Positions 5,738-40,550 of a DNA stretch of 40,550 nt are shown in pieces. Source of the stretch: Polyangium jinanense. Its GTDB lineage: Bacteria > Myxococcota > Polyangia > Polyangiales > Polyangiaceae. Under the pieces are notes generated by a model. That model was not told the origin of the DNA. It did not search any database and saw only the letters and a program-made list of their open reading frames with translations. A program made the translations under genes and the position numbers. The stretch covers positions 1 through 40,550 of the forward strand of contig NZ_JAGTJJ010000081.1 in assembly GCF_028435365.1 (NCBI RefSeq), in the 5' to 3' direction. Position 1 is the first letter of the stretch, and the number at the start of each line of letters is the position of its first letter.

Positions 5738-5782
5738 TGCGCTCGGACGGCAGCGCCTCTGGAAAGGCCACGAGGAAGTATG

Positions 5783-8700
5783 ATGGACCTGCGGGATTAC
5801 ACGCTCGGAGAGGTCGTCTACGACGGGACCGAAACACGGGTCTGGCGCGCGGTCCATGTTCCCTCGGGGGCGCATGTGGCCATCAAGAGCCCGGTGGCCG
5901 TGGTGCCCAATCCGCGCGTCTTGGGGCGGCTGATCCACGAGCACCAGGCACTCATGCACCTCGCAGAGGTGCCCGGGGTGGCGCGCGCACGGGCGCTCGT
6001 GCAGCAGGGCGGCACGGTGGCGCTGGTGCTGGAGGATCCTGGCCTCGACTCGCTCGATCACCTGCTCGCCAAGCAGGGGCGCTTGCCGGTCGGGGCCGCG
6101 CTACGGCTCGGCAAGCTCCTGTCGCGGGTGCTCGAGGGGGTGCATGCCGCGGGCGTGATGCACAAGGACGTCAAGCCGCAAAACGTGCTGGTGGACGAGG
6201 CCTGCGAGAAGGTCACGCTGCTCGACTTCGGCATCGCCTCGCTCTTGTCGCAGGAGGCGACCGAGGCGAGCATCCCCGAAGCGCTGGAGGGGACGCTGGT
6301 GTATATCTCCCCAGAGCAGACGGGGCGCACGGCACGCGCGCTCGATACACGCACGGACCTGTATTCGCTGGGGGTGACGCTCTTCGAGGTGATGTCGGGG
6401 CGGCTGCCCTTCACGGAGCGTGATCCGCTCTCGCTGGTGCACGCGCACCTGGCCAAGGACCCGCGTCCGCTCGATTCCGTCGCGCCGGACGTGCCCAGGG
6501 CCGTGGCGGCCATCGTGGCGAAGCTTTTGGCGAAGGATCCCGAGCGGCGCTACCAGACGGCCCGCGGCGTGGCGGAGGATCTGGAGGAGGCGCTCCGGCA
6601 ATGGAACGAGCGGGGCACGGTGGAGCCGTTCCGGCTGGGAAGAAAAGATTTTTCGCGAAAGCTCCGGATTCCGCAGACGCTGGTGGGGCGGGAGCGCGAC
6701 GTCGAGCGGGTGGGCGAGTCCTTTGCGCGCGCCGCGCAGGGTACGACGGAGCTTTTGCTCGTCGGGGGTCCCTCGGGCATCGGCAAGACGGCGCTGGTGC
6801 GCACGGTCTACAGGGATATCGCGCAGGCAGGGCGCGGGCTCTTGATCGCGGGCAAGCACGATCAGCTCGCGCGGTCGACACCCTTCGCGGCATTGGCGCA
6901 AGCGTTCGGGGCGCTGATGCGTCAATGGCTTTCCAGCTCGGAGACGGTGCTCGAGGCCTGGAAGGAGCGAATTCGGCGCGAGGTCGGGGACAATGCGCGG
7001 CTCATCGCGGACGTGGTGCCGGAGCTCGACCTGGTCATGGGCAAGCTGCCACCGGTGCCGCCGGTGGAGGGCGACCAGGTGCTCAACCGGCAGAAGCTGA
7101 CGTGGCTGAATTTCGTGCGAGCCGTCACGGCGCCGAACCCGCCGCTCGTGATGTTTTTGGACGACATGCAGTGGGCCGACAGCGCCACGCTGCTCATCCT
7201 GCAGACGCTGCTGACGGACGTGGAGCGAAAATCGCTGCTCGTGATCGCGGCGTACCGCGATAACGAGACGCCGCCCGAGCACCCGCTCTGGAAGCTCGTG
7301 GAGGCGGTGGAAAAGAGCGAGGCCAAGGTCTCACGAATGACGGTGGGCCCGCTGTCGGCAGAGCAGGTGCAAAAGTGGCTCGCGCGAACGCTGGAGAGCG
7401 AGCCTGTGCGGGTGTTGCCGCTTTCGCGCGTGCTTTCGCAAAAGACCCGCGGAAACCCCTTTTTCCTGGAGCAGCTCCTGCTCTCGCTGCACCGGCAGCA
7501 GCAGGTGGTGCGGGACCCGGAGAGCGGGGCGTGGCGCTGGGACCAGTCGTCGCTGGAGAGGGCGGGCGTCACCGATAACGTGGTGGCGCTCTTGACGGAC
7601 AAGGTGCGCGAGATGCCCGAGCCGACGCAAAAGCTCCTCGGGCTCGCGGCCTGCGCAGGCCACACGTTCCACCTGCAGGACCTCACGCGGCTCACCGGGT
7701 GGGAGCGCGCCCCGGTGACGGCGGCGTTATGGCCAGCGCTGGATGCGGAGCTGGTGGTGCCGGTCGATGGCGCGTACCGCCCCGCGCAGGCGCTCGGAGG
7801 CATGGGCGATGTGTCGCTGGACGCGGCGTACCGATTCCTGCACGACCGCGTGCAGCAGGCGAGCTACGAGCGGATCTCGCCGGAGCAGCGGGTGCTCGCG
7901 CATCTGGAGATCGGCCGGCGGCTCCGGGCGCGTTATCGTGACGAGGGGGGTACGGCCCAGCAATTCCTGGAGCTCGTGCGGCATCTGAACCTGGGCTCTT
8001 CGCGGCTCGCATCCGCGGAGGAGCGCAAGGAGCTCGCGCGGCTGAACCTCGAGGGCGCGCGCACCGCGAAGGCGGCGAGCTCGTACCGATTGATGGCCAA
8101 TCTGCTGGACAACGCGCAGGCGCTCCTCGGGGAGCGGGCCTGGGAGGAGGAGCGCGATCTGTCGGCGGAGATCGGGCTCACGCGCCTGGAAGCCGCCTAT
8201 CTGCTCCGGGAGTTCGACGACGTCGAGGCGCGAGCGCTCGCCTTGCTGGACAGGCCTCTGCCGGAGGTGGCGTGGCTCTCGGCGCAGGAAATCCGCACGC
8301 GCTGCTGTGTCGCCACGGGTCAGTATGCGCGAGGAATTGGAATCGGAATCGCCGCCCTCGCAAAGCGGGGCATCACGTTCCCCGACACGGACGACGCGTG
8401 TCTGGCCGCACTCCTGCAAGAGTCCACGGAGCTGGATCAATGGCTCGAACGCAACCCGGACGGGTTCGATCGAATGCAGGCCGATCCGTCGCTTTCGCAC
8501 CGGCTCATCGATGCCCTGATGACGCAGGCGCAGCTCTGCACGATCTACGGCGGCCGGCCGATGTTGTATTCGCTCATCATCGCCCGCATCGTGTCCGAGG
8601 CGATACGGCGGGACGCGCTCACGCCTGCCGCCACGTTCATGATCTGCAGCTTTGCCAATGTGTGGTCGGTGGCGACGGGCATGTACCGCCGTGTCATGCG

Positions 8701-11700
8701 ATGGCTCACGCCCGGGGTGCGCGCCGCAGAACGTGTGGGCTCCCCGATGCTCCCCGAATGCCTCGCGCTCAAGGGGATTTACCTGGCCCACACGAGGCCC
8801 GTCGATGAAGCACCGCCCGTCTATGAGCAAGGCATCACGGCCGGCTTGAAGATCGGGTCCTTTCAAGGCACGAGCTGGGGGATCTTGTCCGAATTGGCTT
8901 ACTACCGGGTGTGGCGTGGTCTGCCGCTCGGCCAGGTCGATGCGCAGCAAAAAGCTCGCTGGGATCTGGTGCAGCGCGCAGGGGACGCCGTCGGGCGACA
9001 CCACTTCGAGCTGGTCGCGTCGTTTTGCGAAGTGCTCATGTCTCCGGACGGAGCCAAGAACCTCCTCGAGGAGGAGCCATTGCCACGAGGTTCGCGCTCC
9101 CTCCTGGCCGATGGAGACAAGTTCACCGGAGGGGTCGCTCGGACCCTGGAAGGGTATCTGTTCTGTGCGGTCGGCAAGTGGGAGCAGGCGTTGTCGAGGA
9201 TGCGGGAGGCGGAGCAATTCCAGGCAGACATCCTCGGGATGCCACCCGTGACGGACATCGCGCTCTTTCTCGCGCTCGCAGCGGCGAAGTGCTGGCCCGA
9301 CGCCGCCACGAGCGAGGAACAGGCGCGGCTCGGGCAGCACATCGAGCACAGCCTCACGCGATTGCGCTATTTCACCGAAGGCTGCGAAGAGAACTTCCTC
9401 CACAAGCTGCGCCTCGTCGAGGCCGAATACGCCCGCGTCCTCGGCAAAACCAAGGAGGCAGCGGACAAATACGACGAGGCCATCGAGCTCAGCCGCGAGC
9501 ACCGCTTTCTGCACATCGAGGCCCTGTCCGCCCAGCTCGCCGCCGAGTTTCGCCTTTCGATGGGCAAGACCCACATCGGGGCGATGTACCTGCGCGAGGC
9601 TCGTGATGCCTACGCGCGCTGGGGCGCTTATGCCGTGGTCGCCCACCTGGGCGCGAGGTATCCGGCCGTGCTCAAGGTGTCCATGCTCGAGCCTGCCTCC
9701 GAGCGCACGACCATGACGGCGACGACCACAACCACGGGTGAAGCCACGAACGCGAATTTCGACGTAAAAACCGCGGTGCGCGCGGCGCAGGCGCTGTCGG
9801 GCGAGCTCGACCCGGGGCGCGTGGTGGGCCGACTGATGGAGCTCACCCTGGAGAACGCGGGGGCGCAACGCGGCGCCCTGGTGCTCAGCGAAGGGGATGC
9901 GCTCTCCGTCGTTGCGCGGTTATCGGTGGAAGGGGCCCGCATCGAGACGGGGCTGTCGGAGCCTCTCGGGCAGAGTCACGACGTGCCAGTGGCGGTAGTG
10001 AAATATGCAGCCCGCACAGGCGAGCCGGTGGTGACGGGCGATGCGAGGTCCGAGGCGCGCTTCGCCGGCGACCCGTACCTCACATCGCACGCGGTCCTCT
10101 CGCTGCTGGCGTTGCCCTTGACGCATCGGGGCCACGTGGTGGGCGTGCTGTACCTCGAGCACCGCGACGTGCCGTCGGCCTTCCCTCCCGCACGCGTGGA
10201 GCTCTTGTCGGTGCTCGCCTCGCAGGCAGCAATCGCCGTCGAGAACGCCGTGTTGTACCGGGACTTGGAGGTCAAAATCCAGGAGCGCACGGCGCAGCTA
10301 CAGATCGCCAAGGAGGCGGCCGACCGCGCCAATCGAGCGAAGAGCGATTTCCTCTCGAGCATGAGCCACGAGCTACGCACGCCACTCAATGGCATCCTGG
10401 GGTACGCTCAATTCCTCATGCGAGCGCCCGAGCTCTCGCCAAAGAGCCGCGAAGGGGTGCAAATCGTGAAGAAGTCGGGCGAGCACCTGCTTTCGTTGCT
10501 GAACGATCTCCTAGACCTGGCGAAGATCGAGGCCGGCAAGATGGAGCTCGTCCCCCTGAAGTTCGACTTTCCCTCCTTCGTGCGCACCATCGTGGACCTC
10601 TGCCGTGTGCGCACCGAACCAAGGGGCATCGCCTTCACCTACGAGGTGCGGGGCCCAGCGCTCGCCGCCGTGCACGCCGACGAAAAGCGCTTGACGCAGG
10701 TGCTCCTGAACCTGCTCGGCAACGCCATCAAGTTCACCGAGCGCGGCGCAGTCACCCTGCTCGTCGACGTGCTGACCGAGGGCGGAAGTGGTACGCGCGA
10801 GGTGCGCTTCCGAATCGAGGACACGGGCCCTGGCATCGCCCCAGAGCACCTCGCGCGCATCTTCGACCCCTTCGAGCAGGTGGGCGACCAGAAGGCAAAG
10901 AGCGAAGGGACCGGGCTCGGCCTTGCCATCACCAAGAGGCTCATCGAGCAGATGGGCGGAACCATTCACGTCGAGAGCGAGCTAGGCAAAGGGAGCGCAT
11001 TCACAGTGACGCTCACGCTGACCGAGGCGCTCCCTCCCGCGGCCGTCGACGAGGCCCCGGGGTGGGACACAATCACCGGGTATCGCGGCGAGCGCCGCAA
11101 GATCCTCGTCGTGGACGACAACCCCGGCAACCGCGCCTTGTTCTGCGATCTGCTCGTCCCCATCGGCTTCGACGTCATCCAGGCCGACGGCGGCGAATCC
11201 GCGCTGCGGCTGGCCCTGGAGCACAAGCCGGCGCTGATCCTGATGGACCTGGCCATGCCAGGCCTCGACGGCTACGAGACCACGCGCCGCCTGCGGCAGA
11301 TGCCCGAGCTCGACGGAGTGGTCATCCTGGCCTCGTCAGCGAACGTGACCGCCGCCGAACAGCCGAAGGGCGCCCACACCGGCTGGGACGATTTCTTGCC
11401 CAAGCCCGTGCAGGCCAGCGTGCTCTTCGAAAAAATCGCGCGATTCCTCGGCGTGGAATGGACGCATGAACCAGTGAAAGCCGCAGCCCCCACGGCGGAG
11501 CAGGATGGCGCGCTGGTGCCGCCCTCGGCCGAGCAGCTATCGCTGCTCTCGCGGCTGGTGGCGTCGGGTCGTATCCGGAACGTGCTGGCGGAAGCGGAGC
11601 GAATGCAACAAAACGAGCCGCGACTCGGCCCCTGGCTCAAGCAGTTCCAGACGCTAGCATTGACCTACCAGATACGGAAGCTGCAGGAGTTCGTCGAGGA

Positions 11701-11743
11701 GTATGCCGCGGTAGGCCAGGCAGCGGCGAGCGAGAGCACCTGA
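5783..11743 (+). CDS. Kinase A: Ser/Thr kinase-AAA-GAF-histidine kinase-receiver fusion
   Basis: A giant cytoplasmic signalling protein of 1986 aa resembling the cyanobacterial HstK/'multi-sensor multi-kinase' type. Order: Ser/Thr kinase (about 5-270; VAIK Lys35, HKD catalytic Asp129, DFG Asp148); AAA ATPase (Walker A GPSGIGKT 329-336, Walker B LDDMQWAD with Asp460/461); helical TPR-like region (about 650-1270); GAF (about 1330-1490); HisKA with His1529; HATPase; receiver with Asp1822; helical tail. The kinase loop is HKD, not HRD. The start at 5783 (second of two adjacent ATGs) has GAGGAAG at 5772-5778 and matches the MDL start of paralogue B. Key residues then have identical numbers in A and B. 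No membrane segment is seen. The TetR gene lies 94 bp upstream, and repeat copy 2 starts 17 bp after the stop. Confidence 0.93.
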   Translation: MDLRDYTLGEVVYDGTETRVWRAVHVPSGAHVAIKSPVAVVPNPRVLGRLIHEHQALMHLAEVPGVARARALVQQGGTVALVLEDPGLDSLDHLLAKQGRLPVGAALRLGKLLSRVLEGVHAAGVMHKDVKPQNVLVDEACEKVTLLDFGIASLLSQEATEASIPEALEGTLVYISPEQTGRTARALDTRTDLYSLGVTLFEVMSGRLPFTERDPLSLVHAHLAKDPRPLDSVAPDVPRAVAAIVAKLLAKDPERRYQTARGVAEDLEEALRQWNERGTVEPFRLGRKDFSRKLRIPQTLVGRERDVERVGESFARAAQGTTELLLVGGPSGIGKTALVRTVYRDIAQAGRGLLIAGKHDQLARSTPFAALAQAFGALMRQWLSSSETVLEAWKERIRREVGDNARLIADVVPELDLVMGKLPPVPPVEGDQVLNRQKLTWLNFVRAVTAPNPPLVMFLDDMQWADSATLLILQTLLTDVERKSLLVIAAYRDNETPPEHPLWKLVEAVEKSEAKVSRMTVGPLSAEQVQKWLARTLESEPVRVLPLSRVLSQKTRGNPFFLEQLLLSLHRQQQVVRDPESGAWRWDQSSLERAGVTDNVVALLTDKVREMPEPTQKLLGLAACAGHTFHLQDLTRLTGWERAPVTAALWPALDAELVVPVDGAYRPAQALGGMGDVSLDAAYRFLHDRVQQASYERISPEQRVLAHLEIGRRLRARYRDEGGTAQQFLELVRHLNLGSSRLASAEERKELARLNLEGARTAKAASSYRLMANLLDNAQALLGERAWEEERDLSAEIGLTRLEAAYLLREFDDVEARALALLDRPLPEVAWLSAQEIRTRCCVATGQYARGIGIGIAALAKRGITFPDTDDACLAALLQESTELDQWLERNPDGFDRMQADPSLSHRLIDALMTQAQLCTIYGGRPMLYSLIIARIVSEAIRRDALTPAATFMICSFANVWSVATGMYRRVMRWLTPGVRAAERVGSPMLPECLALKGIYLAHTRPVDEAPPVYEQGITAGLKIGSFQGTSWGILSELAYYRVWRGLPLGQVDAQQKARWDLVQRAGDAVGRHHFELVASFCEVLMSPDGAKNLLEEEPLPRGSRSLLADGDKFTGGVARTLEGYLFCAVGKWEQALSRMREAEQFQADILGMPPVTDIALFLALAAAKCWPDAATSEEQARLGQHIEHSLTRLRYFTEGCEENFLHKLRLVEAEYARVLGKTKEAADKYDEAIELSREHRFLHIEALSAQLAAEFRLSMGKTHIGAMYLREARDAYARWGAYAVVAHLGARYPAVLKVSMLEPASERTTMTATTTTTGEATNANFDVKTAVRAAQALSGELDPGRVVGRLMELTLENAGAQRGALVLSEGDALSVVARLSVEGARIETGLSEPLGQSHDVPVAVVKYAARTGEPVVTGDARSEARFAGDPYLTSHAVLSLLALPLTHRGHVVGVLYLEHRDVPSAFPPARVELLSVLASQAAIAVENAVLYRDLEVKIQERTAQLQIAKEAADRANRAKSDFLSSMSHELRTPLNGILGYAQFLMRAPELSPKSREGVQIVKKSGEHLLSLLNDLLDLAKIEAGKMELVPLKFDFPSFVRTIVDLCRVRTEPRGIAFTYEVRGPALAAVHADEKRLTQVLLNLLGNAIKFTERGAVTLLVDVLTEGGSGTREVRFRIEDTGPGIAPEHLARIFDPFEQVGDQKAKSEGTGLGLAITKRLIEQMGGTIHVESELGKGSAFTVTLTLTEALPPAAVDEAPGWDTITGYRGERRKILVVDDNPGNRALFCDLLVPIGFDVIQADGGESALRLALEHKPALILMDLAMPGLDGYETTRRLRQMPELDGVVILASSANVTAAEQPKGAHTGWDDFLPKPVQASVLFEKIARFLGVEWTHEPVKAAAPTAEQDGALVPPSAEQLSLLSRLVASGRIRNVLAEAERMQQNEPRLGPWLKQFQTLALTYQIRKLQEFVEEYAAVGQAAASEST

Positions 11744-11760
11744 CGAGGTCTCATCTGGAG

Positions 11761-12078
11761 GCGCTGAGCTGGGGCGTTGCCCCAGGCCCCACCAGGGGCT
11801 ATCCGCCCCTGGACCCGGACCAGCGCAAGCGCTGGACCCGGGGTCGATGAACTGCGCAATGCGCAGTTCATCGAACAGGCCGCAGTCAAGACCAGCGAAG
11901 GCCCTGCCAAGCAAGACCGCCGTGACTGGCAACGCCGTTCCTGGTCTTGCCACCGGCCTGTGGGAAGAACTGCGCATCGCGCAGTTCTTCCCCCTGAGGT
12001 CCAGGGCTTGCCCTGGTTCGGGTCGAGGGGCGAACAGCCCCCGCGGGGTCCGGGGCAGCGCCCCGGCGCAACGGCCCG
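11761..12078. repeat. Compound inverted hairpin repeat, copy 2 (complete)
   Basis: Left arm: GGGGC..GCCCC hairpins, CCAGCGCAAGCGCTGG (11820-11835), then a 14-bp perfect stem TCGATGAACTGCGC with a 3-nt loop (11844-11874). Spacer: about 70 bp. Right arm, the same module inverted: 14-bp stem GGGAAGAACTGCGC (11962-11992), CCAGGGCTTGCCCTGG (12001-12016), then a CCGGGGC..GCCCCGG hairpin. It fills the gap between two convergent genes (stops at 11743 and 12085) and could act as a bidirectional terminator. No coding sequence or transposase is present. Confidence 0.9.
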
Positions 12079-12084
12079 TCGTGG

Positions 12085-14259
12085 CTACACGGACCGGACG
12101 CGGCCATCGGGGCTCGTCTCGACCCCACCATGGTTTCGCCCGGCCAAACTTGCCACGTGCGCCACCAGCTCCGACGGCTTCACTGGCTTGGCCAGATGCA
12201 TCTGGTAGCCGGCCAAAAGCGCCCGCGCGCGGTCCTCGGCGCGCGCGAATGCGGTCAATGCCAGCGCTGGCACGCTCCCCCCACGCTCCCGGGGCAACTG
12301 CCGTACCTTCTGGATCAGCTCGTACCCGCCCTCTTGCGGCATGCCGATGTCGCTCACCAGAACCGTCGGCTGGTCTCGGATCAGCTCTGCCAGAGCCTCC
12401 ACGACGGAGCCTGCCGTCCGCACCTCCGCATGACACTCCACCAGGATCCGCAGGAGTAGCTCTCGCGTGTCCGGCTCGTCGTCCACCACCAGCACCCGCA
12501 CCCCCGTCAAATTCAGAAGCTCCCCGCCACGGTGCGACAAGGGCCGGCGCTGCGGCATCGAGAGAGGCCGTTCTCCGACCAAAACCTCGGCATGCTTGGC
12601 CTCCAGCGGCAGCCTCACCGTGAAGCTCGCCCCCTGGTCCTTCCCTGCGCTCTGCGCCTCCACCGTCCCCCCGTGCAGCTCGACCAGGTGCTGCACGATC
12701 GAAAGCCCCAGACCCAGCCCGCCATGCTCGCGCGTGGTTGAAGCGTCTTCTTGCCGGAATTGCTCGAATACGTACGGCAAAAAATTCGGATCGATGCCGA
12801 TCCCCGTATCGCTCACCGCGAGATGCGCATACGAGCCCTCGCGACGCAGCGATACCTTTACCTGCCCGCCCTGCGGCGTGAACTTCATCGAGTTGCTGAG
12901 CAGGTTCCACACGATCTGCTGGAGACGATTCGGGTCCCCCATGACCAGTTCTCCGGCCGACGCGATGTTGAGCTCCAGGCGGATTCCCTTCGTCTTCGCC
13001 GCCGGCTCCGCCGATACCAACATCGTTTCGAGCATCTCGGCCAGATCGACCACCTCCATCTCGAGGCTCAGCCGCCCGCTGATGATACGCGACATGTCCA
13101 GGAGGTCGTCGATGAGCTTGGCTTGCGTCCGTGCGTTTCGCTCGATTGTCCCGAGCCCCCGGCGCTGGATCTCGTCCGAGGGACCGCGGGTGAGGAGCAA
13201 CTGCGACCAGCCGAGGATCGCGGTGAGCGGCGTCCGCAGCTCATGGCTCAAAAGCGCCAGGAACTCATCCTTCAGCCGCCCGGTACGCTCGAGCTCCGCG
13301 CGCGCCGCCTGTTCGCGGGAGAGCAGCCTCTCCCGCTCCGCCGCCGTCCGCGTTCGCTCGCTGATGTCCGTGGAAATCCCGCAAACCGCATACGTCCGGC
13401 CCGACTCGTCGAACAGCGGGCACTTGATCGAGATGTACGTGTGGACCCCATCGTCCTGGGGCACGATCTCTTCCCTCTCCAGGACCTTCCCGGCCGCTGC
13501 CACCCGCAGGTCGAAAGCGCGAAATGCGTCGGCATACTCCGTGGTGAACAAGTCATAGTCGGTCTTGCCGAGGAGCGACTGCTCGGTCACATGAAATAAT
13601 TCTTTGAAACGGCGATTGACCATCAAATAGCGGCCTTCGAGGTCCTTGACGTAGAGGACCGCCGTGGAGTTGTCGGCGATGGCCTGGAGCAGATGCTGGC
13701 TCTCGCGCAAAGCATCTTCCGCGCGCCTTCGCTCGGCATTCTCCGCCTTGAGAGCCGCGTTCGAGGTCGCCAACTCGGCCGTGCGCTCTCGCACCCGTTG
13801 TTCCAGCTCCTGATGGGCATGCTGCAGCTGCGCGTTCTTCGCTTCCAGCTCTTTTTGTGCCTCGCGTAAGCTCAGGTGCGTCCGGATCCGCGCGAGCACC
13901 TCGTCAATCTCGAATGGTTTGGTGATGTAATCGACGCCCCCTGCCTCGAACCCCTCGAGCTTGTTTGCCGCTTCTCCGAGACAGGTCATGAATATCACCG
14001 GGATGTCTCGGGTGCCTTCCGCCGCTTTCAGGCGCCGGCACGTCTCGAAGCCGTCGATCCCAGGCATCACCACGTCCAGCAGAATCAGGTCGGGTTTCAT
14101 GAGGCGAGCCCGCTTCAAGGCGTCTTCCGCGTCCTGTGCGACGAGCGCCTGATGACCTGCGGATTCCAGATGATCCACGAGCACGGCCAGGTTGATGGGC
14201 ATGTCATCCACGATGAGGATCGTGCCCTCACGAACACCGGGCGCCGGGGCTCTGCTCAT
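12085..14259 (-). CDS. Hybrid histidine kinase REC-PAS-HK-REC
   Basis: A soluble 724-aa kinase. The N-terminal receiver (ILIVDDMPINL, acceptor Asp62 in LLDVVMPG, Lys in TKPF) is followed by a coiled coil (about 125-190). A PAS/PAC domain comes next (about 200-310, ending in CGISTDISERT). HisKA has His339 in SHELRTPLTAILGW. The HATPase shows NLLSNSMKFTP, VSDTGIGID and GLGLGLSIVQ. The C-terminal receiver has Asp637 in VSDIGMP and Lys in AKPV. The chosen ATG at 14259 directly precedes the receiver; the frame is open to 14379 but adds low-complexity residues. There is no membrane segment, so input must come through the first receiver or the PAS. It belongs to a different HK subtype from kinases A and B. 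It ends 7 bp from repeat copy 2. Confidence 0.92.
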   Translation of the reverse strand: MSRAPAPGVREGTILIVDDMPINLAVLVDHLESAGHQALVAQDAEDALKRARLMKPDLILLDVVMPGIDGFETCRRLKAAEGTRDIPVIFMTCLGEAANKLEGFEAGGVDYITKPFEIDEVLARIRTHLSLREAQKELEAKNAQLQHAHQELEQRVRERTAELATSNAALKAENAERRRAEDALRESQHLLQAIADNSTAVLYVKDLEGRYLMVNRRFKELFHVTEQSLLGKTDYDLFTTEYADAFRAFDLRVAAAGKVLEREEIVPQDDGVHTYISIKCPLFDESGRTYAVCGISTDISERTRTAAERERLLSREQAARAELERTGRLKDEFLALLSHELRTPLTAILGWSQLLLTRGPSDEIQRRGLGTIERNARTQAKLIDDLLDMSRIISGRLSLEMEVVDLAEMLETMLVSAEPAAKTKGIRLELNIASAGELVMGDPNRLQQIVWNLLSNSMKFTPQGGQVKVSLRREGSYAHLAVSDTGIGIDPNFLPYVFEQFRQEDASTTREHGGLGLGLSIVQHLVELHGGTVEAQSAGKDQGASFTVRLPLEAKHAEVLVGERPLSMPQRRPLSHRGGELLNLTGVRVLVVDDEPDTRELLLRILVECHAEVRTAGSVVEALAELIRDQPTVLVSDIGMPQEGGYELIQKVRQLPRERGGSVPALALTAFARAEDRARALLAGYQMHLAKPVKPSELVAHVASLAGRNHGGVETSPDGRVRSV

Positions 14260-14629: not shown

Positions 14630-14714
14630 AAGCCGAACGAGGACGGCTGCGCTCGACATGGACAGGGACGGCCTCCCGGACGACGAGGACAAGTGCCCGA
14701 AGCAGCCATCATGA
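14630..14714 (+). pseudogene. Fragment of a thrombospondin type 3 repeat (OmpA/TSP3 protein remnant)
   Basis: The plus strand encodes PNEDGC (14633-14650). After a frame change it encodes 'DMDRDGLPDDEDKCPKQPS' up to a stop at 14712-14714. Together these match the calcium-binding TSP3 repeat pattern (PNEDGCPD.DRDG.PD..DKCP..P) common in myxobacterial OmpA-family proteins. Only about 28 residues survive, across two frames, with no start or outer-membrane domain, so this is a gene fossil. It abuts the methyltransferase remnant on the other strand. Confidence 0.5.
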
Positions 14715-14995
14715 TAGGCGTCGCCGCAGCTTGTAAATAGGGTGGGTCGACGCCCCCTGCTGCATGTCGTGATAGACCTTCGAGCCCGGCGTGCCCAGAA
14801 AGTTCCCCAGGGATTCGGCGTCATTGCTGCGCGCGAAGGCGTCGAAATGTGCCGTGCCAATCTCGTCGCACCACGTCGAACGCGCTGTCGGCGAAGGGCA
14901 ACCTCTCGGCGTCCCCCTCGACGAACCGCGTGTTCGGGAAGCGGTGGGTCCGCTGGTTGAAGGCCACGCAATCAACGCGGTCGATTTCGGATGCT
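14709..14995 (-). pseudogene. Collapsed SAM-dependent methyltransferase remnant
   Basis: In one minus frame (about 14995-14865) the sequence reads VDCVAFNQRTHRFP, then RFVEGDAERLPFADSAFDVV. This is the acidic motif and following strand of class I (Methyltransf_11-type) methyltransferases. In another minus frame (about 14876-14709) it reads HFDAFARSNDAESLGNFLG, then TPGSKVYHDMQQG and IYKLRRRLS, which looks like the C-terminus of the same kind of enzyme. The segment between them (about 100 or more residues in a normal enzyme), and the SAM-binding glycine motif before them, are missing. This suggests an internal deletion and frameshift. The remnant runs into the 3' end of the TetR gene. Confidence 0.6.
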
Positions 14996-15655
14996 CGTCG
15001 GGCGCTTGGGAAGGTGACGGAGGCCCATCCACGCGAGGGCCGCGATGTGCGTGGCGACCTCCTCAATCGGGGGCTTGCGGGCCGTCGTCCACCACTGGCC
15101 CACGAACGTCACCATGCCGACGAGGGCATGGCCGTAGATGGGCGCCGCGCGAGCGTCGTAGCCGCCGGCTTTGAAAGAAGCCGTGAAGACCTCGCTGACC
15201 CGCACGCCCAGGTCGCTGAGTAGCGATAACATCCCGCCGCCCGCGGCGGGGGCGTCGTGGGCGAGGATCGCGAAACCATCGGGGTGATCCTTGACGTAGG
15301 TGAGGAAGGCGAGGGCCCCCTGCTCGAGTCGCTCGCGCGGTTCACCTTGAGCGATCGCCTCGGAGATCCTCCGGACCACATAGTCCATCTCGCGGTCGAC
15401 CACGACCGCGTAGAGCCCTTCTTTCCCACCGAAGTGCTCGTAGATGACGGGCTTGGAGACCTTGGCGCGTTCGGCGATCTCCTCGACCGAAGTGGCCTCG
15501 TAACCGCGTCGTGCAAAGACAAACCGACCCGCGTCGATGATGGAGGCGCGGCGGGCCGAAGCTGAAAGGCGGGGCGCTCGGGGCGGCATCGCGCCGAGTT
15601 TAGCCTCGCGGGTGTCGACATGCCGGCCGTTGTGACGGACTCTCACCGTAGCCAT
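14972..15655 (-). CDS. TetR family regulator, autoregulated and divergent from hemolysin III operon
   Basis: A 227-aa TetR protein. Its helix-turn-helix is TSVEEIAERAKVSKPVIYEHFGGKEGLY (about residues 55-82), followed by an all-helical ligand domain ending near 'VATHIAALAWMGLRHLP'. The start at 15655 has a strong GAAGGA immediately upstream, though spacing is short. An internal ATG at 15589 (MPPRAP, 205 aa) is the alternative and fits the usual family length better. The divergent gap carries three related palindromes (15666-15683 and 15798-15829), one of them just upstream of this gene's ribosome site. Autorepression and control of the 15864-17796 operon are therefore likely. The 3' end overlaps the methyltransferase remnant, so the last 10-14 residues may not be ancestral. 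Confidence 0.88.
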   Translation of the reverse strand: MATVRVRHNGRHVDTREAKLGAMPPRAPRLSASARRASIIDAGRFVFARRGYEATSVEEIAERAKVSKPVIYEHFGGKEGLYAVVVDREMDYVVRRISEAIAQGEPRERLEQGALAFLTYVKDHPDGFAILAHDAPAAGGGMLSLLSDLGVRVSEVFTASFKAGGYDARAAPIYGHALVGMVTFVGQWWTTARKPPIEEVATHIAALAWMGLRHLPKRPTSIRNRPR

Positions 15656-15665
15656 GATTCCTTCT

Positions 15666-15683
15666 ACCTACGGTCGAGTAGGT
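15666..15683. promoter_or_regulatory. TetR operator candidate O1
   Basis: A perfect palindrome ACCTAC-N6-GTAGGT lies 10 bp upstream of the TetR start codon. The same pattern recurs at 15798-15829 on the other side of the divergent gap, which supports a dimeric regulator site. Confidence 0.6.
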
Positions 15684-15797
15684 TTCATGGCCCACGCGGC
15701 CGGTCTCGCGCGCCTTCCCGCAGACGATCGCCCCTGGGAAGCTTGGTCATGTTTCGGTCAGGATCGCGAACGGCGCGACGGGCCGTTTGACCTGCTA

Positions 15798-15829
15798 CCC
15801 TACTCGATCGTATCTACGTTTCCGTAGGT
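15798..15829. promoter_or_regulatory. Overlapping TetR operator candidates O2 and O3
   Basis: O3 (15812-15829) reads ATCTAC-N6-GTAGGT and differs from O1 at one half-site base. O2 (15798-15815) reads CCCTAC-N6-GTATCT and matches O1 on its opposite strand at 14 of 18 positions, including the core CCTACTCGA. The two overlap by four bases, with centres 14 bp apart. They lie 35-66 bp before the hemolysin III start, where a repressor would cover the promoter. Confidence 0.55.
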
Positions 15830-15863
15830 AAGCGCGCCGTCGCTGACCTCGAGAAGGCCTCCC

Positions 15864-16544
15864 ATGAACGACGACCTGCATGCACCGCTTGCGAACGGCT
15901 TCGAACCGCACTCCGAGAAGCCCAAGCTCCGGGGCGTCCTTCATCAGTGGGCGGCGCTCGTCGCGTTCGTCGCGGGTGTGGCGCTCGTATGCATCACCGC
16001 CGAGATCCGCCGTTCGGTGGCTGCCGCAGTCTACAGCCTCAGCCTGCTCACCCTCTTCACGGTCAGCGCGACGTACCACCGGATCAACTGGGGCCCGAAG
16101 GCGCGCCTGCGCATGCGTCGCCTCGATCACGCGGCCATCTTCGTGCTCATTGCTGGCACGTACACGCCCATCGCCCTGATTGCCCTGGGCCCAGGAGACG
16201 GGACGAGGCTTTGCACGCTGGCATGGGCGTGCGCCGCCGTGGGCATCGTCAAGTCGATCTTCTGGTCGGGCTCGCCGAAATGGGTGACCGCTGCCGTGGC
16301 CGTCGTCGCCGGCTGGTGCATCGTTCCGTTTCTGAGCGCCGTGGGGCGCGCGCTCGACCTCACGCAGCTCTTCCTGATCTTCGGCGGAGGCGCCTTCTAC
16401 ACCCTCGGCGCCCTTGCCTACGCATCGAAGCGCCCGAACCCCGTCGTCGGCGTCTTCGGCTACCACGAGGTGTTTCACGCCTGCACCGTCGTCGCCGCCG
16501 CGATGCATTTCACGGCCGTCGCGACGATCGTTCGAGGGGCGTGA
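15864..16544 (+). CDS. Hemolysin III family (PAQR-type) membrane protein
   Basis: A 226-aa integral membrane protein with seven predicted hydrophobic segments. It carries the metal-binding signature of the HlyIII/PAQR superfamily: Ser68-x3-His72 (SATYH), Asp88 (LDHAAIF) and His201-x3-His205 (HEVFH). In the family this Zn site suggests a hydrolase, possibly ceramidase-like; the name 'hemolysin' is historical. GAAGG lies a few bases before the start at 15864. It is the first gene of a tight three-gene operon behind the TetR operators. Its stop (16542-16544) lies 8 bp before the lipase ATG. A role in membrane lipid turnover under TetR control is inference. Confidence 0.88.
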   Translation: MNDDLHAPLANGFEPHSEKPKLRGVLHQWAALVAFVAGVALVCITAEIRRSVAAAVYSLSLLTLFTVSATYHRINWGPKARLRMRRLDHAAIFVLIAGTYTPIALIALGPGDGTRLCTLAWACAAVGIVKSIFWSGSPKWVTAAVAVVAGWCIVPFLSAVGRALDLTQLFLIFGGGAFYTLGALAYASKRPNPVVGVFGYHEVFHACTVVAAAMHFTAVATIVRGA

Positions 16545-16552
16545 CGGCCGCC

Positions 16553-17506
16553 ATGCGAAAGAACGTGGAGCTCTTGATCGGGGTGCTGAATGGTGCCGTC
16601 GGCGACTATTTGCACCGCACGGGCAATGGCCTCGCCACGCCGATGACGTTCGTACACGGAGAAAAACCCCTCCGTGCCACGCGCCGCGCGCTCCTCGATG
16701 CCTACCCCCACGCGACGGCCCGCATTGCCGTGCTCGTGCACGGCTTGATGAGCGTCGAGAGCATCTGGCAGATGCCCGACGGCGAGACGTACGGCTCGCT
16801 CCTCGCCCGCGACCTGGGATTCACGCCCGTGTTCGTCCGCTACAACAGCGGGCTGCACGTTTCCGACAACGGCGAGGCGCTCGACGCGCTGTTCGAGCGG
16901 CTGGTCGACGAATACCCCGTCCCTGTCGAGGAGATCTTGCTCATGGGCCACAGCATGGGCGGCCTCGTCTTGCGCAGCGCGACCCACGTCGCGAGCGAGA
17001 AAGGACGGCGCTGGTTGCCCCTCGCCACGCGCGCCTTCTACATCGGCACGCCCCACCTCGGCGCCCCGCTCGAACGCATCGGCAACGTGGTCTCCTGGAC
17101 GCTGCAAAAGGTCGGCAATCCGGTCGCGACGCTGATCGCCGACATCCTCAATCTGCGCAGCAGCGGCGTGAAGGATTTGCGCTTCGCCAACCTGCGGCGC
17201 GAGGACTGGGAGGGCGCGGACGAAGGCGCGCTCTTGCAGAACCGCCGCCACCCCGTGCCGCTTCTGCCGCACATCCGTCACCACCTCATCGCGGGTACGC
17301 TGTCCAAGGATCCGCGCCTCGGCCTGCTCTTCGGCGACGCGCTGGTCGCGGTGGCGAGCGCGACGGGCCGGGCAGAGCCCAGACACCGTTGCTCTCCCTT
17401 CCCCCAGGAGCACGTGCGGATCATGGCGGGAATGGATCACCTCCGCATCGCCGCGGACCCGGACGTCTACACGCAGATTCGCGCGTGGTGCGAGGAGACA
17501 ACATGA
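16553..17506 (+). CDS. Alpha/beta-hydrolase, lipase/esterase-like
   Basis: A 317-aa alpha/beta hydrolase without a signal peptide. The oxyanion motif LVHGLM (His63-Gly64), the nucleophile elbow GHSMGG (Ser134), an acidic residue in GDALVAVAS (Asp262) and His296 in GMDHLRI form a credible triad in the usual order. 'YIGTPHLGAPLE' after the elbow is typical of triacylglycerol lipase/PGAP1-like members. The ATG at 16553 is preferred. A GTG at 16541 would overlap the hemolysin III stop, but its ribosome site is too close. The stop overlaps the next gene by 4 bp (ATGA), so the genes are translationally coupled. Probably a cytoplasmic or membrane-associated lipid esterase. Confidence 0.87.
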   Translation: MRKNVELLIGVLNGAVGDYLHRTGNGLATPMTFVHGEKPLRATRRALLDAYPHATARIAVLVHGLMSVESIWQMPDGETYGSLLARDLGFTPVFVRYNSGLHVSDNGEALDALFERLVDEYPVPVEEILLMGHSMGGLVLRSATHVASEKGRRWLPLATRAFYIGTPHLGAPLERIGNVVSWTLQKVGNPVATLIADILNLRSSGVKDLRFANLRREDWEGADEGALLQNRRHPVPLLPHIRHHLIAGTLSKDPRLGLLFGDALVAVASATGRAEPRHRCSPFPQEHVRIMAGMDHLRIAADPDVYTQIRAWCEETT

Positions 17507-17796
17507 TGGAACGATGGCGAGGCGCGAAGGCGCTCGTAGCGGACACGATCGACCAGGGCTCGCGCGCCGTGGAGCGATTGCAGAAAGAGACGGCCCGAAG
17601 GCCGCTCGACCTGCTCGCGCGCATCCCGCCCCTCGAGGTGCCCGCGAAGGGAATCCTCGAGATCCATCACCTTCTGGTGTCGAACACCCACGCAATGATC
17701 CGGCTCGTCAATCGCGTCGTCGCCGACACCCTGGACGTCGTGATCGACATGGTGGACAAACGCAACGAGCACGCCTCCCGCTCGGCGAGCCAGTGA
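17503..17796 (+). CDS. Small helical protein of unknown function, operon partner of lipase
   Basis: A 97-aa protein starting at the ATG in the ATGA overlap with the lipase gene (GAGGAG at normal spacing). A second ATG follows immediately. It is predicted mainly helical and amphipathic ('ILEIHHLLVSNTHAMIRLVNRVVADTLDVVIDMVDK') with basic N-terminal and hydrophilic C-terminal ends. There is no signal peptide and no recognised family. Tight coupling suggests it works with the lipase, perhaps as a membrane or lipid-interface helper; this is inference. Confidence 0.75.
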   Translation: MMERWRGAKALVADTIDQGSRAVERLQKETARRPLDLLARIPPLEVPAKGILEIHHLLVSNTHAMIRLVNRVVADTLDVVIDMVDKRNEHASRSASQ

Positions 17797-18234
17797 CCAG
17801 GCCGTCATCCATGAGGGTGACCACGGGGCGTCGAGATGCTGCTCGACGGCGGGCGTGTCGCGGCCGCGGGCAAACGTGAGGTCGAGAACGACAACTGCAC
17901 GGAGCACGAACCGAACGCCTTCGCCGTGGCCGGAGCGCTCGCCTCGACATCGGGCTTGACACAGCGGCTTTCGTGATGTGCGGGGGCGCCGGCGCAGCAC
18001 CTCGCACCGTGACAGCTCGTGACGAGACCTGCGCACCTTCCGTCCCGAACACGCATTCCATGTTCCGGGACAACTGGACTTTTATGCTGGTGCGCCTCCT
18101 TCCGCATGAAGTTCGTCTTCAAAGCACTGGATTCTGCCCGCGAGGTTTGCGAGTCTCCCTTGCAGACACCCCTTCGTCGGGGCCTCGCGGCTCCGATCGA
18201 TTTCTGCCTCGCAAGAGGCACGGAGACCTTGCTC
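17797..18234. other. Intergenic stretch without recognisable gene
   Basis: 438 bp between the lipase operon and the OmpA-like lipoprotein. A 46-codon plus-strand frame from ATG 17837 and several minus-strand frames are open, but none shows a ribosome site or known motifs. The promoter for the lipoprotein is probably in the AT-richer part around 18055-18125. Confidence 0.5.
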
Positions 18235-19023
18235 ATGAATCGACGCCTCCTCGTGACTCCGCTCATTCTGGCCTCTCTCGTCGCCGGCTGCGGCCATTCC
18301 GAGGACGAGTGGAGGGCTCAGCTCGACAAGTACAATCAGCTCCAGGACCAGAGCGCTAGCAAGCAGGCCGAGCTGGAGAAAGAGCTCGCCGCGGCCAAGC
18401 AGCGCGTCGCCGACCTCGAGAAGCAGTTGCAGGACGCCGGCGCGGACGTGAAGAAGATGAGCTCGACGCTCGAGGATCAGGAGAAAGCGCTCGCCGAGTA
18501 CAAGGCGCGCGCGAAGCAACTCGAAGCCATCAAGGCGCGCTTCGACCTCCTGCGCAAGAAGCTCGACGAGCTGACCAAGCTCGGACTCGCAGTCAGCATC
18601 CGCCGCAACCGCATGGTGATCTCGCTCCCGGGCGACGTGCTCTTCGATACCGGCAAGGTCGAGCTGAAGAAGGAAGGCGAGGACATCCTCAAGAAGGTCG
18701 CCGGGGTCATCAAGAACGACCGATCCCTGGCCGATCGTGATTATCAGGTCGCTGGTCACACCGATAACCAGCCCCTCAACGGCGGCACGTACCAGGACAA
18801 CTGGGGCCTGTCGCTGATGCGCGCCCGCTCGGTGTTGATCTTCCTGGTGGGCAAGGGCGGAGCGCTGCCGCGGTCGCACTGGAGCGCGGCCGGATTCGCG
18901 GACACGGATCCGGTGGCCAACAACGGGACGAAGGACGGTCAGCAGAAAAACCGGCGCTGCGATCTGATCGTGGTACCGGACGTGGACGAGATGATCGACC
19001 TCACGAAGCTGACGAAGGAATGA
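18235..19023 (+). CDS. OmpA-family peptidoglycan-associated lipoprotein with coiled coil
   Basis: A 262-aa envelope protein. The signal peptide ends in the lipobox LVAGC (Cys20). A long coiled coil follows (about residues 25-105, KQAELEKELAAAKQRVADLEKQLQ), then a C-terminal OmpA/MotB-like domain (about 120-250). That domain shows VLFDTGKVELKKEGEDIL, the peptidoglycan-binding GHTDNQPLN and the LSLMRARSVL helix. It should anchor in the outer membrane and bind the cell wall. The start at 18235 has GGAG nine bases upstream; the frame is open further up but without a signal peptide. It appears monocistronic, with a hairpin terminator candidate at 19033-19074. Confidence 0.9.
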   Translation: MNRRLLVTPLILASLVAGCGHSEDEWRAQLDKYNQLQDQSASKQAELEKELAAAKQRVADLEKQLQDAGADVKKMSSTLEDQEKALAEYKARAKQLEAIKARFDLLRKKLDELTKLGLAVSIRRNRMVISLPGDVLFDTGKVELKKEGEDILKKVAGVIKNDRSLADRDYQVAGHTDNQPLNGGTYQDNWGLSLMRARSVLIFLVGKGGALPRSHWSAAGFADTDPVANNGTKDGQQKNRRCDLIVVPDVDEMIDLTKLTKE

Positions 19024-19032
19024 GGGGATGTA

Positions 19033-19074
19033 GGAGGGGCGTGACGCGGTCCTGAGCATCGCCTCCGCCCCTCC
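19033..19074 (+). terminator. Hairpin after OmpA-like gene
   Basis: A perfect 9-bp stem GGAGGGGCG / CGCCCCTCC with a 24-nt loop begins 10 bp after the stop at 19023. There is no T-run, which is usual for GC-rich genomes. It could also be chance complementarity in a GC-rich stretch. Confidence 0.4.
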
Positions 19075-19116
19075 GACCGCCTCCGCATCCGCTCCTTGCG
19101 CCCGTATCGACCTCGG

Positions 19117-19455
19117 GCGCTGCGCTGGGGCTTTGCCCCAGACCCCACCGGGGCTGTCCGCCCCTGGACCCGGACCAGCGCAAGCGCTGGACCCGGGGTC
19201 GATGAACTGCGCGATGCGCAGTTCATCGAACAGGCCGAGTCAAGACCAACGACGACCCTGCCAGCCAAGACAGCAGCGCTGACGTCTCGACCCATGACGT
19301 CGCCAGCGTGGAACGCACCTCCATGGTCTTGCCACCGGCCTGTGGGAAGAACTGCGCATCGCGCAGTTCTTCCCCAAATGGTCCAGGGCTTGCCCTGGTT
19401 CGGGTCGAGGGGCGAACAGCCCCCGCGGGGCCCGGGGCAGCGCCCCGGCGCGGCG
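19117..19455. repeat. Compound inverted hairpin repeat, copy 3 (complete)
   Basis: It has the same arrangement as copy 2: a left arm with GGGGC..GCCCC and CCAGCGCAAGCGCTGG hairpins and the 14-bp stem TCGATGAACTGCGC (19199-19229). A longer spacer of about 115 bp follows, then the inverted right arm with stem GGGAAGAACTGCGC (19344-19374), CCAGGGCTTGCCCTGG (19383-19398) and CCGGGGC..GCCCCGG. The arms are almost identical to copy 2, while the spacer is clearly diverged and longer. It lies between two co-directional genes and ends about 56 bp before the von Willebrand gene start. Confidence 0.9.
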
Positions 19456-19511
19456 GTTTACGATTCTTGCTTCCTCCCCTCACCCGGGCACGGCCCGGGA
19501 AGGAGGTTTCC

Positions 19512-21056
19512 ATGCAGATCCTCTTGTTTCTCGCGACGCTCGTCCTCTTCGGGCAGCCTGCGCTCGCCGCGTCACGCGTCGAGGTCTCCTGGCGTTACGA
19601 GCGCGCAGACAATGCACGCACCGAATCGGGATCCCGATCCATCGAAATCCCGCCGCTCGGGGGCCCTGGCCTCGTCGCCACCGATCCCGGGATCGAAAAG
19701 ACGATTTTCTTGGCGCAGACTGCCCAGACCCTCGTGGATTTCCTCGACCGGTACGAGAACGCCTGCCCGGCCCCCGTTCGCTCCGAGATCGGGCGGGTCG
19801 CCATCGATTGCGCCACCCCTCGAATGGCTGTCGCTTCTGCATTGCGCACCGAAATCCAGGCCATGGACGCCCGCATCCTGGCGAATCCGCGGCTTCGCGT
19901 GGATCAGGACGTCGTGGAGGTCCTGGATCTTACGCGCTCCCTCGCGGCGAACATGGCGCAGGGTCATGCGCCCGTCGGCGGTTATTCGCCGCCGCAGCCC
20001 GCTCCGCTGCACGGGGCGCTGTATTTCGCCGCGCGTGCGGGCGGCGGTGGGCTCGCCCTCGGGGGCGGCGGGGCGCAGGGGTTCGGGTATTTCCGCAAGC
20101 TCGTGCGGGATGGAAGCGTACCCAAGGCCGACGTGCTCACCGTCGAGGGATTTTTGCGCGAGTTTTCCCTCCCGCTCACCCGCGCCGAGGCCTGCTCGTC
20201 CCTCGTTTGCGTGAATCCAGCCGTGGCCGTCGATTCCGAAAAACGCCGGCTGTACGTGCAGCTCGGCATGAGCTCGAATGTGACTGAGGAGGCCTTCCGG
20301 CGCGATCCGCTGAACCTCGCTGTGGTGCTCGACGTCAGCGGCTCGATGGGTGCCACGGACGGCACCGAAAAATCGCGGCTCGAATGGGCCAAGGACGCGC
20401 TCATTCGCACGATCGAGGAGCTCGACGAGCAGGACATGCTGTCGATCGTCCTCTTCGAGACGAACAGCGAAATCCTCGTCCGGCCCGCGCCCGTGCGCGA
20501 CAAGCCGGCGCTCATCGCCAAGGTGAGGGCTCTCCAAACCCGCGGCTCGACGAACCTGGAAGCCGGGCTGCGCGACGGATTCACGCTCGTCCGGGAAAAC
20601 GTGGACCGCCTGCCGGGCTACGAGCACCGCGTGATCCTCATCTCGGACGCGGGGCTCAACACGGGCGTGACGGATACCGCCTCGCTCGAGCGGCTCGTGA
20701 CCGAGCAGGCGAACGCTCGGATCGGCCTGACCGCGCTCGGGGTCGGGGAGAATTTCCACCAATCGGTGATCCACGCGATCACGAACAGCCGGGGCGGCAA
20801 TTACTTGTTCGTACAATCGGGCGAGGACATGCTCCGGTATTTCCGGGCCTTCGATTATCTCGTGACGCCCGTGGCTTACGATTTCAACGTCGCGGCGTTC
20901 GTGCAAGGGCTCGGCGTCGAGCACGTGCGCTCATATGGCGTGACGACGGAGGGAGGCGCACAGCCCTCGCGGAACCTGATCGATTTGAAGACGTTGTTCT
21001 TCACCGAGACCGGCGGCGCAATCTTGCTCGAATACGCGCTGCCGCAAGCCCGGTGA
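19512..21056 (+). CDS. Secreted von Willebrand factor A domain protein
   Basis: A 514-aa exported protein. It has a signal peptide (LLFLATLVLFGQPALA), a novel N-terminal region (about 20-235, with a Gly-rich turn GGGGLALGGGGAQG), then a VWA domain (about 265-445). A complete MIDAS is present: DVSGS (Asp274, Ser276, Ser278), Thr347 in GSTNLEAG, and Asp379 in LISDAGLN. MIDAS domains bind Mg2+ and protein ligands. A perfect AGGAGG (19501-19506) sits before the ATG at 19512. The C-terminus ends soon after a beta-rich segment, so it lacks the long extension some YfbK-like proteins have. The beta-lactamase-fold lipoprotein starts 45 bp downstream and is probably co-transcribed. Confidence 0.88.
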   Translation: MQILLFLATLVLFGQPALAASRVEVSWRYERADNARTESGSRSIEIPPLGGPGLVATDPGIEKTIFLAQTAQTLVDFLDRYENACPAPVRSEIGRVAIDCATPRMAVASALRTEIQAMDARILANPRLRVDQDVVEVLDLTRSLAANMAQGHAPVGGYSPPQPAPLHGALYFAARAGGGGLALGGGGAQGFGYFRKLVRDGSVPKADVLTVEGFLREFSLPLTRAEACSSLVCVNPAVAVDSEKRRLYVQLGMSSNVTEEAFRRDPLNLAVVLDVSGSMGATDGTEKSRLEWAKDALIRTIEELDEQDMLSIVLFETNSEILVRPAPVRDKPALIAKVRALQTRGSTNLEAGLRDGFTLVRENVDRLPGYEHRVILISDAGLNTGVTDTASLERLVTEQANARIGLTALGVGENFHQSVIHAITNSRGGNYLFVQSGEDMLRYFRAFDYLVTPVAYDFNVAAFVQGLGVEHVRSYGVTTEGGAQPSRNLIDLKTLFFTETGGAILLEYALPQAR

Positions 21057-31510: not shown

Positions 31511-37468
<5,958 letters not shown>

Positions 37469-37600
37469 CTTCGAACCCCTCCCGTGCGTCTCGTACAGAT
37501 GCACGATCCCGATCTGCACCAGAGTAACCTCGGAAAGCCGATGCACGTCAATGCAATTGTGAACGATGCGAGGGCCTGTCGTGTCGTGCCAAACCGTGCA

Positions 37601-40223: not shown

Positions 40224-40357
40224 CAATTTTCACTCTCCAGGGTTGAAGTGAGACGTGGGAAATATCGAGCCACAGGTCGTATTGCAAGGGGGATGACGAG
40301 GATCGCACACGCACACCCCACCCAGCGGCGGAGCATGGGTTTCATGTCGAAGCCGTT

Positions 40358-40427
40358 GCGCTGGGGCGTTGCCCCAGGCCCCACCAGGGGCTGTCCGCCC
40401 CTGGACCTGGACCAGCCAGGGGCCTGA
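40358..40427. repeat. Compound hairpin repeat, copy 4 (truncated left arm)
   Basis: It starts like copies 2 and 3 (GCGCTGGGGC..GCCCCAGG, GGGGCTGTCCGCCCC, CTGGACC) but stops at 'accagccaggggcc', before the 14-bp hairpin. The right arm is absent. It lies just past the stop of the partial gene at the window edge. Confidence 0.8.
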
Positions 40428-40436
40428 GCATTGGTC

Positions 40437-40550
40437 TCATCTCGCGAGCCCATTCTCCCTGAGCACCCGTAGCATCTCTGCTGCGGGTGCCAGTCGTTCG
40501 AGCCCGCGGCTGATGGTGACGGATCCGGGGGGTCCTCCGGAGGACTTGCC
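40437..40550 (-). CDS. 3' end of an unidentified gene (possibly transposase-like)
   Basis: The last 37 codons of a minus-strand frame run into the window edge. They end in GGPPGSVTISRGLERL, then APAAEMLRVLRENGLAR, and a TGA at 40437-40439. The 'GPPG..TI.RGLERL' pattern loosely recalls the C-termini of IS4-type transposases, but this is too short to call. It could be an unrelated protein or a chance frame. The rest lies outside the window. Confidence 0.35.
   Translation of the reverse strand, partial: GKSSGGPPGSVTISRGLERLAPAAEMLRVLRENGLAR

Follow-up and report, generated by a model that had tools for sequence, protein, structure and literature searches.

The compound inverted repeat at positions 11746-12082 of the Polyangium jinanense DNA analysed here (40,550 nucleotides, hereafter the window) belongs to a family of MITEs of a Tn5-like insertion sequence (IS), an assignment that is well supported by the terminal repeats shared with the IS together with the duplication of the target. 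The fuller reading, which we hold to be very probable, is that of a non-autonomous MITE, mostly of 320-390 bp, which would depend on a Tn5-like transposase of the IS4 family acting in trans, would be directed to palindromes and would afterwards lose its ends by decay. The family occupies sites that are empty in related genomes, its targets are symmetric, the IS and some members of the family nest in older copies, and its copies are strongly biased towards gene 3' ends.

The element, designated copy 2, is about 340 bp long and complete, with eight hairpins, four in each arm; it fills the gap between the convergent stop codons at 11743 (+) and 12085 (-), which close the genes 5780-11743 (+) and 12085-14259 (-). 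An inverted-repeat search placed the arms at 11781-11909 and 11927-12055, 129 nt each and 78% complementary, which bears out the original prediction of a single module present in opposite orientations and diverged; the differences between arms quoted there, CCAGCGCAAGCGCTGG (11820-11835) against CCAGGGCTTGCCCTGG (12001-12016) and TCGATGAACTGCGC against GGGAAGAACTGCGC, are likewise present. From the outside inwards, the arm consists of h1 (CTGGGGCGTTGCCCCAG), h2 (around GGGGCTATCCGCCCC), h3 (CCAGCGCAAGCGCTGG) and h4 (TCGATGAACTGCGC..GCGCAGTTCATCGA). On the + strand h1 lies at 11769-11785, h2 at 11792-11812, h3, the hairpin used as IS target in other copies, at 11820-11835, and an h4 of T-A type at 11844-11874; on the - strand an h4' of A-T type is found at 11962-11992, followed by h3' (12001-12016), h2' (12027-12041) and h1' (12050-12066). 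The hairpins at 11844-11874 and 11962-11992 are perfect. A pattern of the hairpin core, with up to three mismatches allowed, matches five times in the window and never in any of 100 shuffles, and RNA folding of 11744-12084 gives a z of -16; in the RNA structure of lowest energy computed for one copy, the outer arms are paired together. No Rfam family matched anywhere in the window at the gathering score, and the search for an intrinsic terminator, that is a T run after a GC hairpin, gave a single weak match over the 501 bases that surround copy 2, with 0.3 expected. The left end is degraded: alignment by eye of CTGACGAGGTCTCATCTGG with CTGAGCATGGGTCTCATCTGG indicates a probable degraded terminal inverted repeat at 11740-11758 (+), whose first CTGA falls on the stop codon of gene 5780-11743; the right end and the duplication are not clear.

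Covariation was evaluated on 163 non-redundant arms, using a FastTree tree and 60 null alignments in which the inferred changes of each column were randomly placed on the tree. Three of 6,555 column pairs reached E <= 0.05, all of them hairpin pairs (h1 10-24, h4 84-112 and h4 87-109); when the 34 proposed pairs are taken alone (E x 34/6,555, our own conversion), five more are added, namely h1 15-19, h2 38-44, h3 63-70, h4 83-113 and h4 88-108. Loop columns 97-99 score too, yet they are unpaired and were left out of the support; in 16 of 147 arms the two positions of the h3 pair 64-69 do not pair. For nine variable pairs in 78 two-armed elements, Watson-Crick pairing is found locally in 1,383 of 1,385 cells and between arms in 683 of 1,385 (plus 134 G-U), counts to be read as non-independent, since founders are common to copies; at h4 84-112 and 87-109 the arms are never Watson-Crick complementary to each other (0/156 each, with nine G-U at the first). 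The near-perfect local pairing, as opposed to the poor pairing between arms, indicates that the conserved structure is a string of local hairpins. G-U pairs make up a share of 0.0002 of 5,107 local cells; thus there is no sign of RNA selection acting on one strand, and palindromes at the DNA level, or a transcript from each strand, are a better fit.

The original prediction held that paired changes imply selection on structure. Covariation does exceed the tree-based null at the three hairpin pairs, but the implication goes too far, because the variable pairs are almost devoid of G-U or mismatched intermediates and thus fit poorly with one-strand RNA selection. An explanation that requires no selection, and that falls only just short of probable, is that a few founder subfamilies with perfect palindromes, or a correction of palindromes at the DNA level (template switching), were copied genome-wide. 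It agrees with the 2-15 inferred changes per covarying column and the near lack of mismatched intermediates, as well as with the unlike letters carried by the two arms at h4 84-112 and 87-109 in 78 of 78 elements, as a single unlike-armed founder would give; however, the three hairpin pairs are the sole pairs of 6,555 that rise above the tree-based null, and several pairs changed repeatedly, with 5 to 15 inferred changes per side.

The link with the IS comes from the 19-bp ends common to IS and element, CTGAGCAYTGGTCTCATCT / CTGAGCATGGGTCTCATCT: the MITE ends match those of the IS at 18 of 18 and 20 of 21 bases. Outside h1, CTGAGCATGGGTCTCATCT is recognised at 17 of 214 arm ends with up to 4 mismatches, a level at which shuffled queries gave none, and 15 of these 17 ends begin exactly 32 nt outside h1. 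In the window the IS itself is visible at the right edge, where it interrupts copy 4 (40329-40423, +), which retains a left end with 3 mismatches, CGGAGCATGGGTTTCATGT, followed by h1, h2 and the initial portion of h3. Inside this h3 stands the 19-bp terminal inverted repeat of the IS, CTGAGCATTGGTCTCATCT (40424-40442, -), which overlaps the C-terminus of an IS4-family Tn5-like transposase (40437-40550, -) that runs off the window; the DNA of this last segment is 96% identical to the end of an intact IS at locus L124. Hence a Tn5-like insertion sequence of the IS4 family has its end at 40424-40550, where no transposase had been thought to be in view. The intact relative (L124:187-1614) encodes 475 aa with matches to Tnp_DNA_bind and Dimer_Tnp_Tn5 (Pfam) and NF033590 IS4 (NCBIfam); it carries the IS4-family YREK motif at Y331-K345, YSTRWRIEDFFRTWK, and D97/D196, and the IS has AACCAGGGC on either side. 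PMC2266710 defines the IS4 family by YREK, DDE and a duplication of about 10 bp, and the transposase shows Y(2)R(3)E(6)K, the DDE residues and an about 10-bp duplication. The YREK signature and the duplication are those of the IS50/Tn5-like IS4 members described there, and a D(98)D(141)E spacing (our own count) and a single-ORF transposase of 475-481 aa are further points of likeness to the family.

Full transposase copies are found in genome G089 (four, 84% identical to L124) and in G004 (one), and pieces in G001, G002 and G090; G003 has 181 core copies, yet it gave no transposase match at E <= 1e-30, which counts against the MITE reading. The end pattern (<=2 mismatches, both strands) occurs 48 times in G001, 73 in G002, 19 in G003, 27 in G004, 32 in G089 and 11 in G090, and not at all in seven other genomes of the bacterial family, one of which (G098) has a single core match; three of these seven contain transposase relatives with 42-48% identity.

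Duplications were sought at 80 loci with end matches, of which 42 gave a two-ended unit and 38 none, several of the latter being cut by contig ends. A duplication of 9 or 10 bp (<=1 mismatch) flanks 20 of the 42 units, compared with 3.4% for flanks taken from different units, and is absent in the other 22, including a 1,504-bp IS (L274). It is present in 14 of the 22 units that measure 252-1,033 bp and have <=2 mismatches at each end, and in four of five units of 1,504-2,090 bp. Nineteen of the 22 shorter units measure 320-392 bp, the rest 252, 1,011 and 1,033 bp. Two MITEs compared with the IS match it at the ends only; the 1,033-bp unit (L268) is a hybrid in which a MITE part and the 3'-terminal 164 bases of the IS (89% identity) are enclosed by the same ends. 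The 1,011-bp unit (L267) has an internal tandem-like repeat, and a 2,090-bp unit lying in an h3 (L276) shows no match to the IS in its interior. At L103:2638-2900 and L106:1131-1550 the elements have an additional arm and an h4 of a third type, CATCGACTGCGC..GCGCAGTCGATG, a sign of internal duplication. In 16 one-ended copies sampled by pattern, the second end was never better than 7 mismatches and no duplication was found.

Such degraded copies are the rule: about nine in ten of the arm ends sampled are without a recognisable end, and 193 of 213 differ from the end sequence at -32 by more than 6 mismatches. The end-less arms preserve a weak trace of it, with 13.41 mismatches at -32 and 13.33 at -31 as compared to 14.06 +- 0.13 at control offsets. 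An end is retained in 19 of 163 non-redundant arms, and these arms are dispersed over the arm tree (19 changes; shuffles 15-19). This scatter, together with the weak trace, is most simply read as ends having been lost in many lineages; on account of the same scatter, the idea that IS ends captured the core once and recently was rejected. A comparable case is QMITE2, whose truncated copies without ends and repeats resemble REPs (PMC10969869).

The element, of which soil bacteria of the genus Polyangium carry many copies, has a narrow distribution. The h4 core pattern matched at least 120 stretches in GTDB species genomes, a scan that also constitutes the coverage outside the family, and the loci listed from it all come from four Polyangium strains. 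In the whole genomes of these strains (G001, G002, G003 and G004) the pattern is found 463, 236, 181 and 412 times, with none for the reversed control. A shorter core pattern was positive in seven of 108 family genomes (G001 480, G002 248, G003 183, G004 431, G089 177, G090 37 and G098 1), the match in G098 being the only one in the 102 genomes other than the first six; a second pattern, spanning h1-h2, is found in G001-G004, G089 and G090, with one match in G091. The element is thus restricted to about six genomes of the family. Over 3 kb of a gene, identity between the window and the four genomes amounts to 92-94%. A plasmid-borne and a viral element were also considered and rejected, as there was no match in the plasmid collection and the core pattern occurred in no viral contig.

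Comparison of orthologous sites reveals both occupied and empty states. At the site of copy 2 the element is present in G001, and spacers of roughly 4 to 40 bases are found in G002, G003 and G004. Orthologous loci, 80 in all and drawn from four genomes (80 of 88 matches taken), were compared for 23 of 26 additional sites in strain 15x6: an arm lies within 700 nt of the stop in 23 and is lacking in 57, and both flanks were matched in 32 of the latter. Four of these 32 are unclear, one having another repeat (L183) and three overlapping flank matches (L203, L207 and L234); in the other 28 the locus is empty, and the flank that starts 20 nt beyond the element comes 9-98 nt after the stop. Site 5 has one junction common to G002, G004 and G089, a copy joined differently in G001 and no element in G003; the unlike junctions indicate that it was probably used repeatedly. 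A clean duplication was not found at the compared orthologous insertion sites inspected in detail. From this, and from the lack of duplication in the one-ended copies, it follows that for most copies, including copy 2, transposition is inferred by homology. The synteny search from G003:C4 around 150 kb gave matches of 70-83% and no clear orthologous stretch. In P. fumosum, L183:121-311 and L229:121-249 contain a different palindromic repeat with GAGCGCCGACCCGTTCGGCGCTC behind the stop codon; at these sites other species have the element or nothing.

As for the choice of target, 20 insertions were examined and, once four in an h3 of CCAGGCAC type were set aside, 16 sites remained, 15 of MITE-like units and one of an IS. 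Around the midpoint of the duplication, symmetry amounts to 5.5 of 11 pairs, as against 3.3 at other offsets (p 5e-5), and palindromy outside the duplication to 3.81 of 7, as against 2.20 of 7 (p 5e-5, the floor of 20,000 draws). Four of the 16 targets are hairpins of CCCCTCTCC..GGAGAGGGG type, and with these left out p is 0.005; the CCCCTCTCC-type hairpin has just two matches in the 141 annotated loci, and at several of the 16 sites a strong hairpin is lacking. Among the larger units checked (L124 and L272-L276) five of six lie in an h3, as does the IS end in the window; h3 is also used by the 252-bp MITE (L266) and by the element of L115, whose duplication does not survive. The duplications are thus centred on GC-rich palindromes, including terminator-like hairpins, and this small sample supports hairpin targeting. 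A target of this type is already known: ISRm22 of Sinorhizobium meliloti, also of the IS4 family, inserts on the symmetry axis of a GC-rich palindrome (PMC1525189, which also cites palindromic, GC-ended targets of Tn5). The target of ISRm22 is a REP, whereas the main palindromic target of the IS described here, h3, belongs to a MITE that shares its ends, and copies of the MITE insert in palindromes as well; a partner MITE that supplies the palindrome is, as far as we have found in the literature, new.

The position relative to genes was studied with an arm profile built from 159 arms and run on the window and 120 loci, with genes called by our own codon-usage script. It returned 151 element clusters, 38 of them at locus edges; the 113 that could be placed lie between convergent (73), tandem (30) or divergent (8) genes, and two are inside an ORF. 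Unoccupied gaps of the same loci are 63 convergent, 274 tandem and 104 divergent (chi-square p about 3e-28), so that the association with gene 3' ends foreseen for the family is confirmed as a strong bias. Between convergent genes a median of 4 nt separates the stop codon from the arm edge, with 110 of 146 distances at <=30 nt; in tandem pairs the median is 7 nt on the 3' side and 115 nt on the 5' side. Longer flanks were taken for 20 end-bearing units (16 with a duplication, 4 without), a small and non-random sample, in which 8 are convergent, 9 tandem, 2 divergent (one being an IS) and 1 at an edge. Six of them overlap a gene end by 4 nt, the TGA in CTGAG being the stop codon of the neighbour. 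Some copies have a stop within their own edge, GCGTAGCG. In the window and L001-L120, TAG is commoner close to arms, where it accounts for 41 of 138 stops within 60 nt, than elsewhere, where it accounts for 86 of 482.

Palindrome targeting best explains the location of copies at 3' ends. In the mechanism proposed, the Tn5-like transposase of the IS with the same 19-bp ends would move the MITE in trans, and would favour the symmetry axis of GC-rich DNA palindromes as its insertion point, producing the duplication of 9-10 bp. The palindromes available to it would be terminator-like hairpins behind stop codons and the h3 of existing copies; copies would thus gather at 3' ends, chiefly between convergent genes, the IS and some MITEs would nest in the h3 of older copies, and the ends would later decay as the hairpins persist. 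The hairpins may then have taken over termination or protection of 3' ends; a terminator function is plausible.

A contrary account, possible but somewhat less than probable, regards the elements as bidirectional terminators or 3'-protecting hairpins maintained by the host, so that selection and not targeting would set and keep the 3' position, and mobility would merely belong to the past. The short distances to stop codons in convergent and tandem pairs accord with it, as do the near-perfect hairpins beside decaying ends and the L183 and L229 sites, at which another hairpin repeat stands where other species have the element. However, the same gene ends are without the element in relatives, as the 28 clear empty loci document, and neither a U tract nor G-U tolerance was found. 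Moreover, end-bearing copies are already near stops, so that long selection is not needed, and such an early location favours targeting, within the limits of that sample. Hairpin targeting, rather than selection alone, is probably the cause of the bias. An extension of the targeting model, which we put forward as a doubtful speculation, is a self-targeting partnership between a hairpin-homing transposase and a hairpin-array MITE: insertion would swap a terminator hairpin for eight able to end the transcription of both convergent genes, would supply a stop (TGA in CTGAG) where needed and would make landing sites for the IS, the unlike arms would preserve perfect local hairpins and yet avoid a long unstable palindrome, and the cost to the host would be close to nil.

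A bias towards gene 3' ends, as in the element here, is also a trait of REP/BIME repeats. Spread of the element as a REP/BIME/REPIN family by RAYT (a Y1/HUH transposase), the logic invoked in the original prediction, is nevertheless highly improbable: it would suit hundreds of palindromic, extragenic, 3'-biased copies with opposite-oriented arms, and PF01797 has one full match in G002 and one partial in G001, but the search, which covered G001-G004, gave none in G003 (181 core copies) or G004 (412), and the reading is largely refuted by the 9-10-bp duplications, which REPs are not known to have. The 19-bp ends shared with a Tn5-like IS also speak against it and for a MITE. There is a general likeness to REP/BIME and to REPINs with RAYT, in that these are dispersed extragenic palindromes with opposite-oriented units (PMC2817692 and PMC3116915); the element differs in the lack of a consistent RAYT, in the ends and duplications of a DDE-type IS, and in a unit length some ten times that of one REP. 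Prokaryotic IS-derived MITEs, according to PMC10969869, are similarly short and intergenic, with IS ends, target duplications and stable stem-loops; they are typically AT-rich, whereas the element here is GC-rich, has eight conserved local hairpins in two unlike arms, lies within nucleotides of stop codons and inserts in palindromes, including its own. The debate over whether hairpin repeats at bacterial gene ends owe their position to targeting, to selection or to both is of long standing; since the family described here offers copies with ends alongside decayed ones, sister species with sites that are empty, and a transposase that can be named, the two are separable by experiment. The suggested route, by which a MITE of a DDE transposase decays into a REP/BIME look-alike, calls for caution in classing repeats by their appearance.

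The dispersal of copies within the window is real, with arm matches at 44-161, 19113-19465 and 40335-40427 in addition to copy 2. Copy 1 is represented by its right arm (44-163, -; h4' 47-77, h3' 86-100, h2' 111-125, h1' 135-151), the remainder being beyond the window edge, and its h1' is 22 nt from the stop of gene 174-4052 (-). Copy 3 (19113-19465) is complete and lies between the tandem genes 18106-19023 (+) and 19512-21056 (+), starting 90 nt past a stop and ending 47 nt ahead of a start; copy 4 is 106 nt upstream of a gene start. The view that each copy abuts a gene 3' end thus applies to 1-163 and 11746-12082, but not to 19113-19465 and 40329-40423. The right edge of copy 3 (19465) is the exact point where synteny with the closest relative, G001, resumes, and 14708-19464 has no collinear match of at least 300 bp in that genome. 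Two genes of about 2,000 codons each, 5780-11743 and 31511-37519, look like paralogues; 31544-37444 matches the G001 orthologue of gene 5780-11743 at 81%, and the latter gene contains kinase, AAA, GAF, histidine kinase and response regulator domains.
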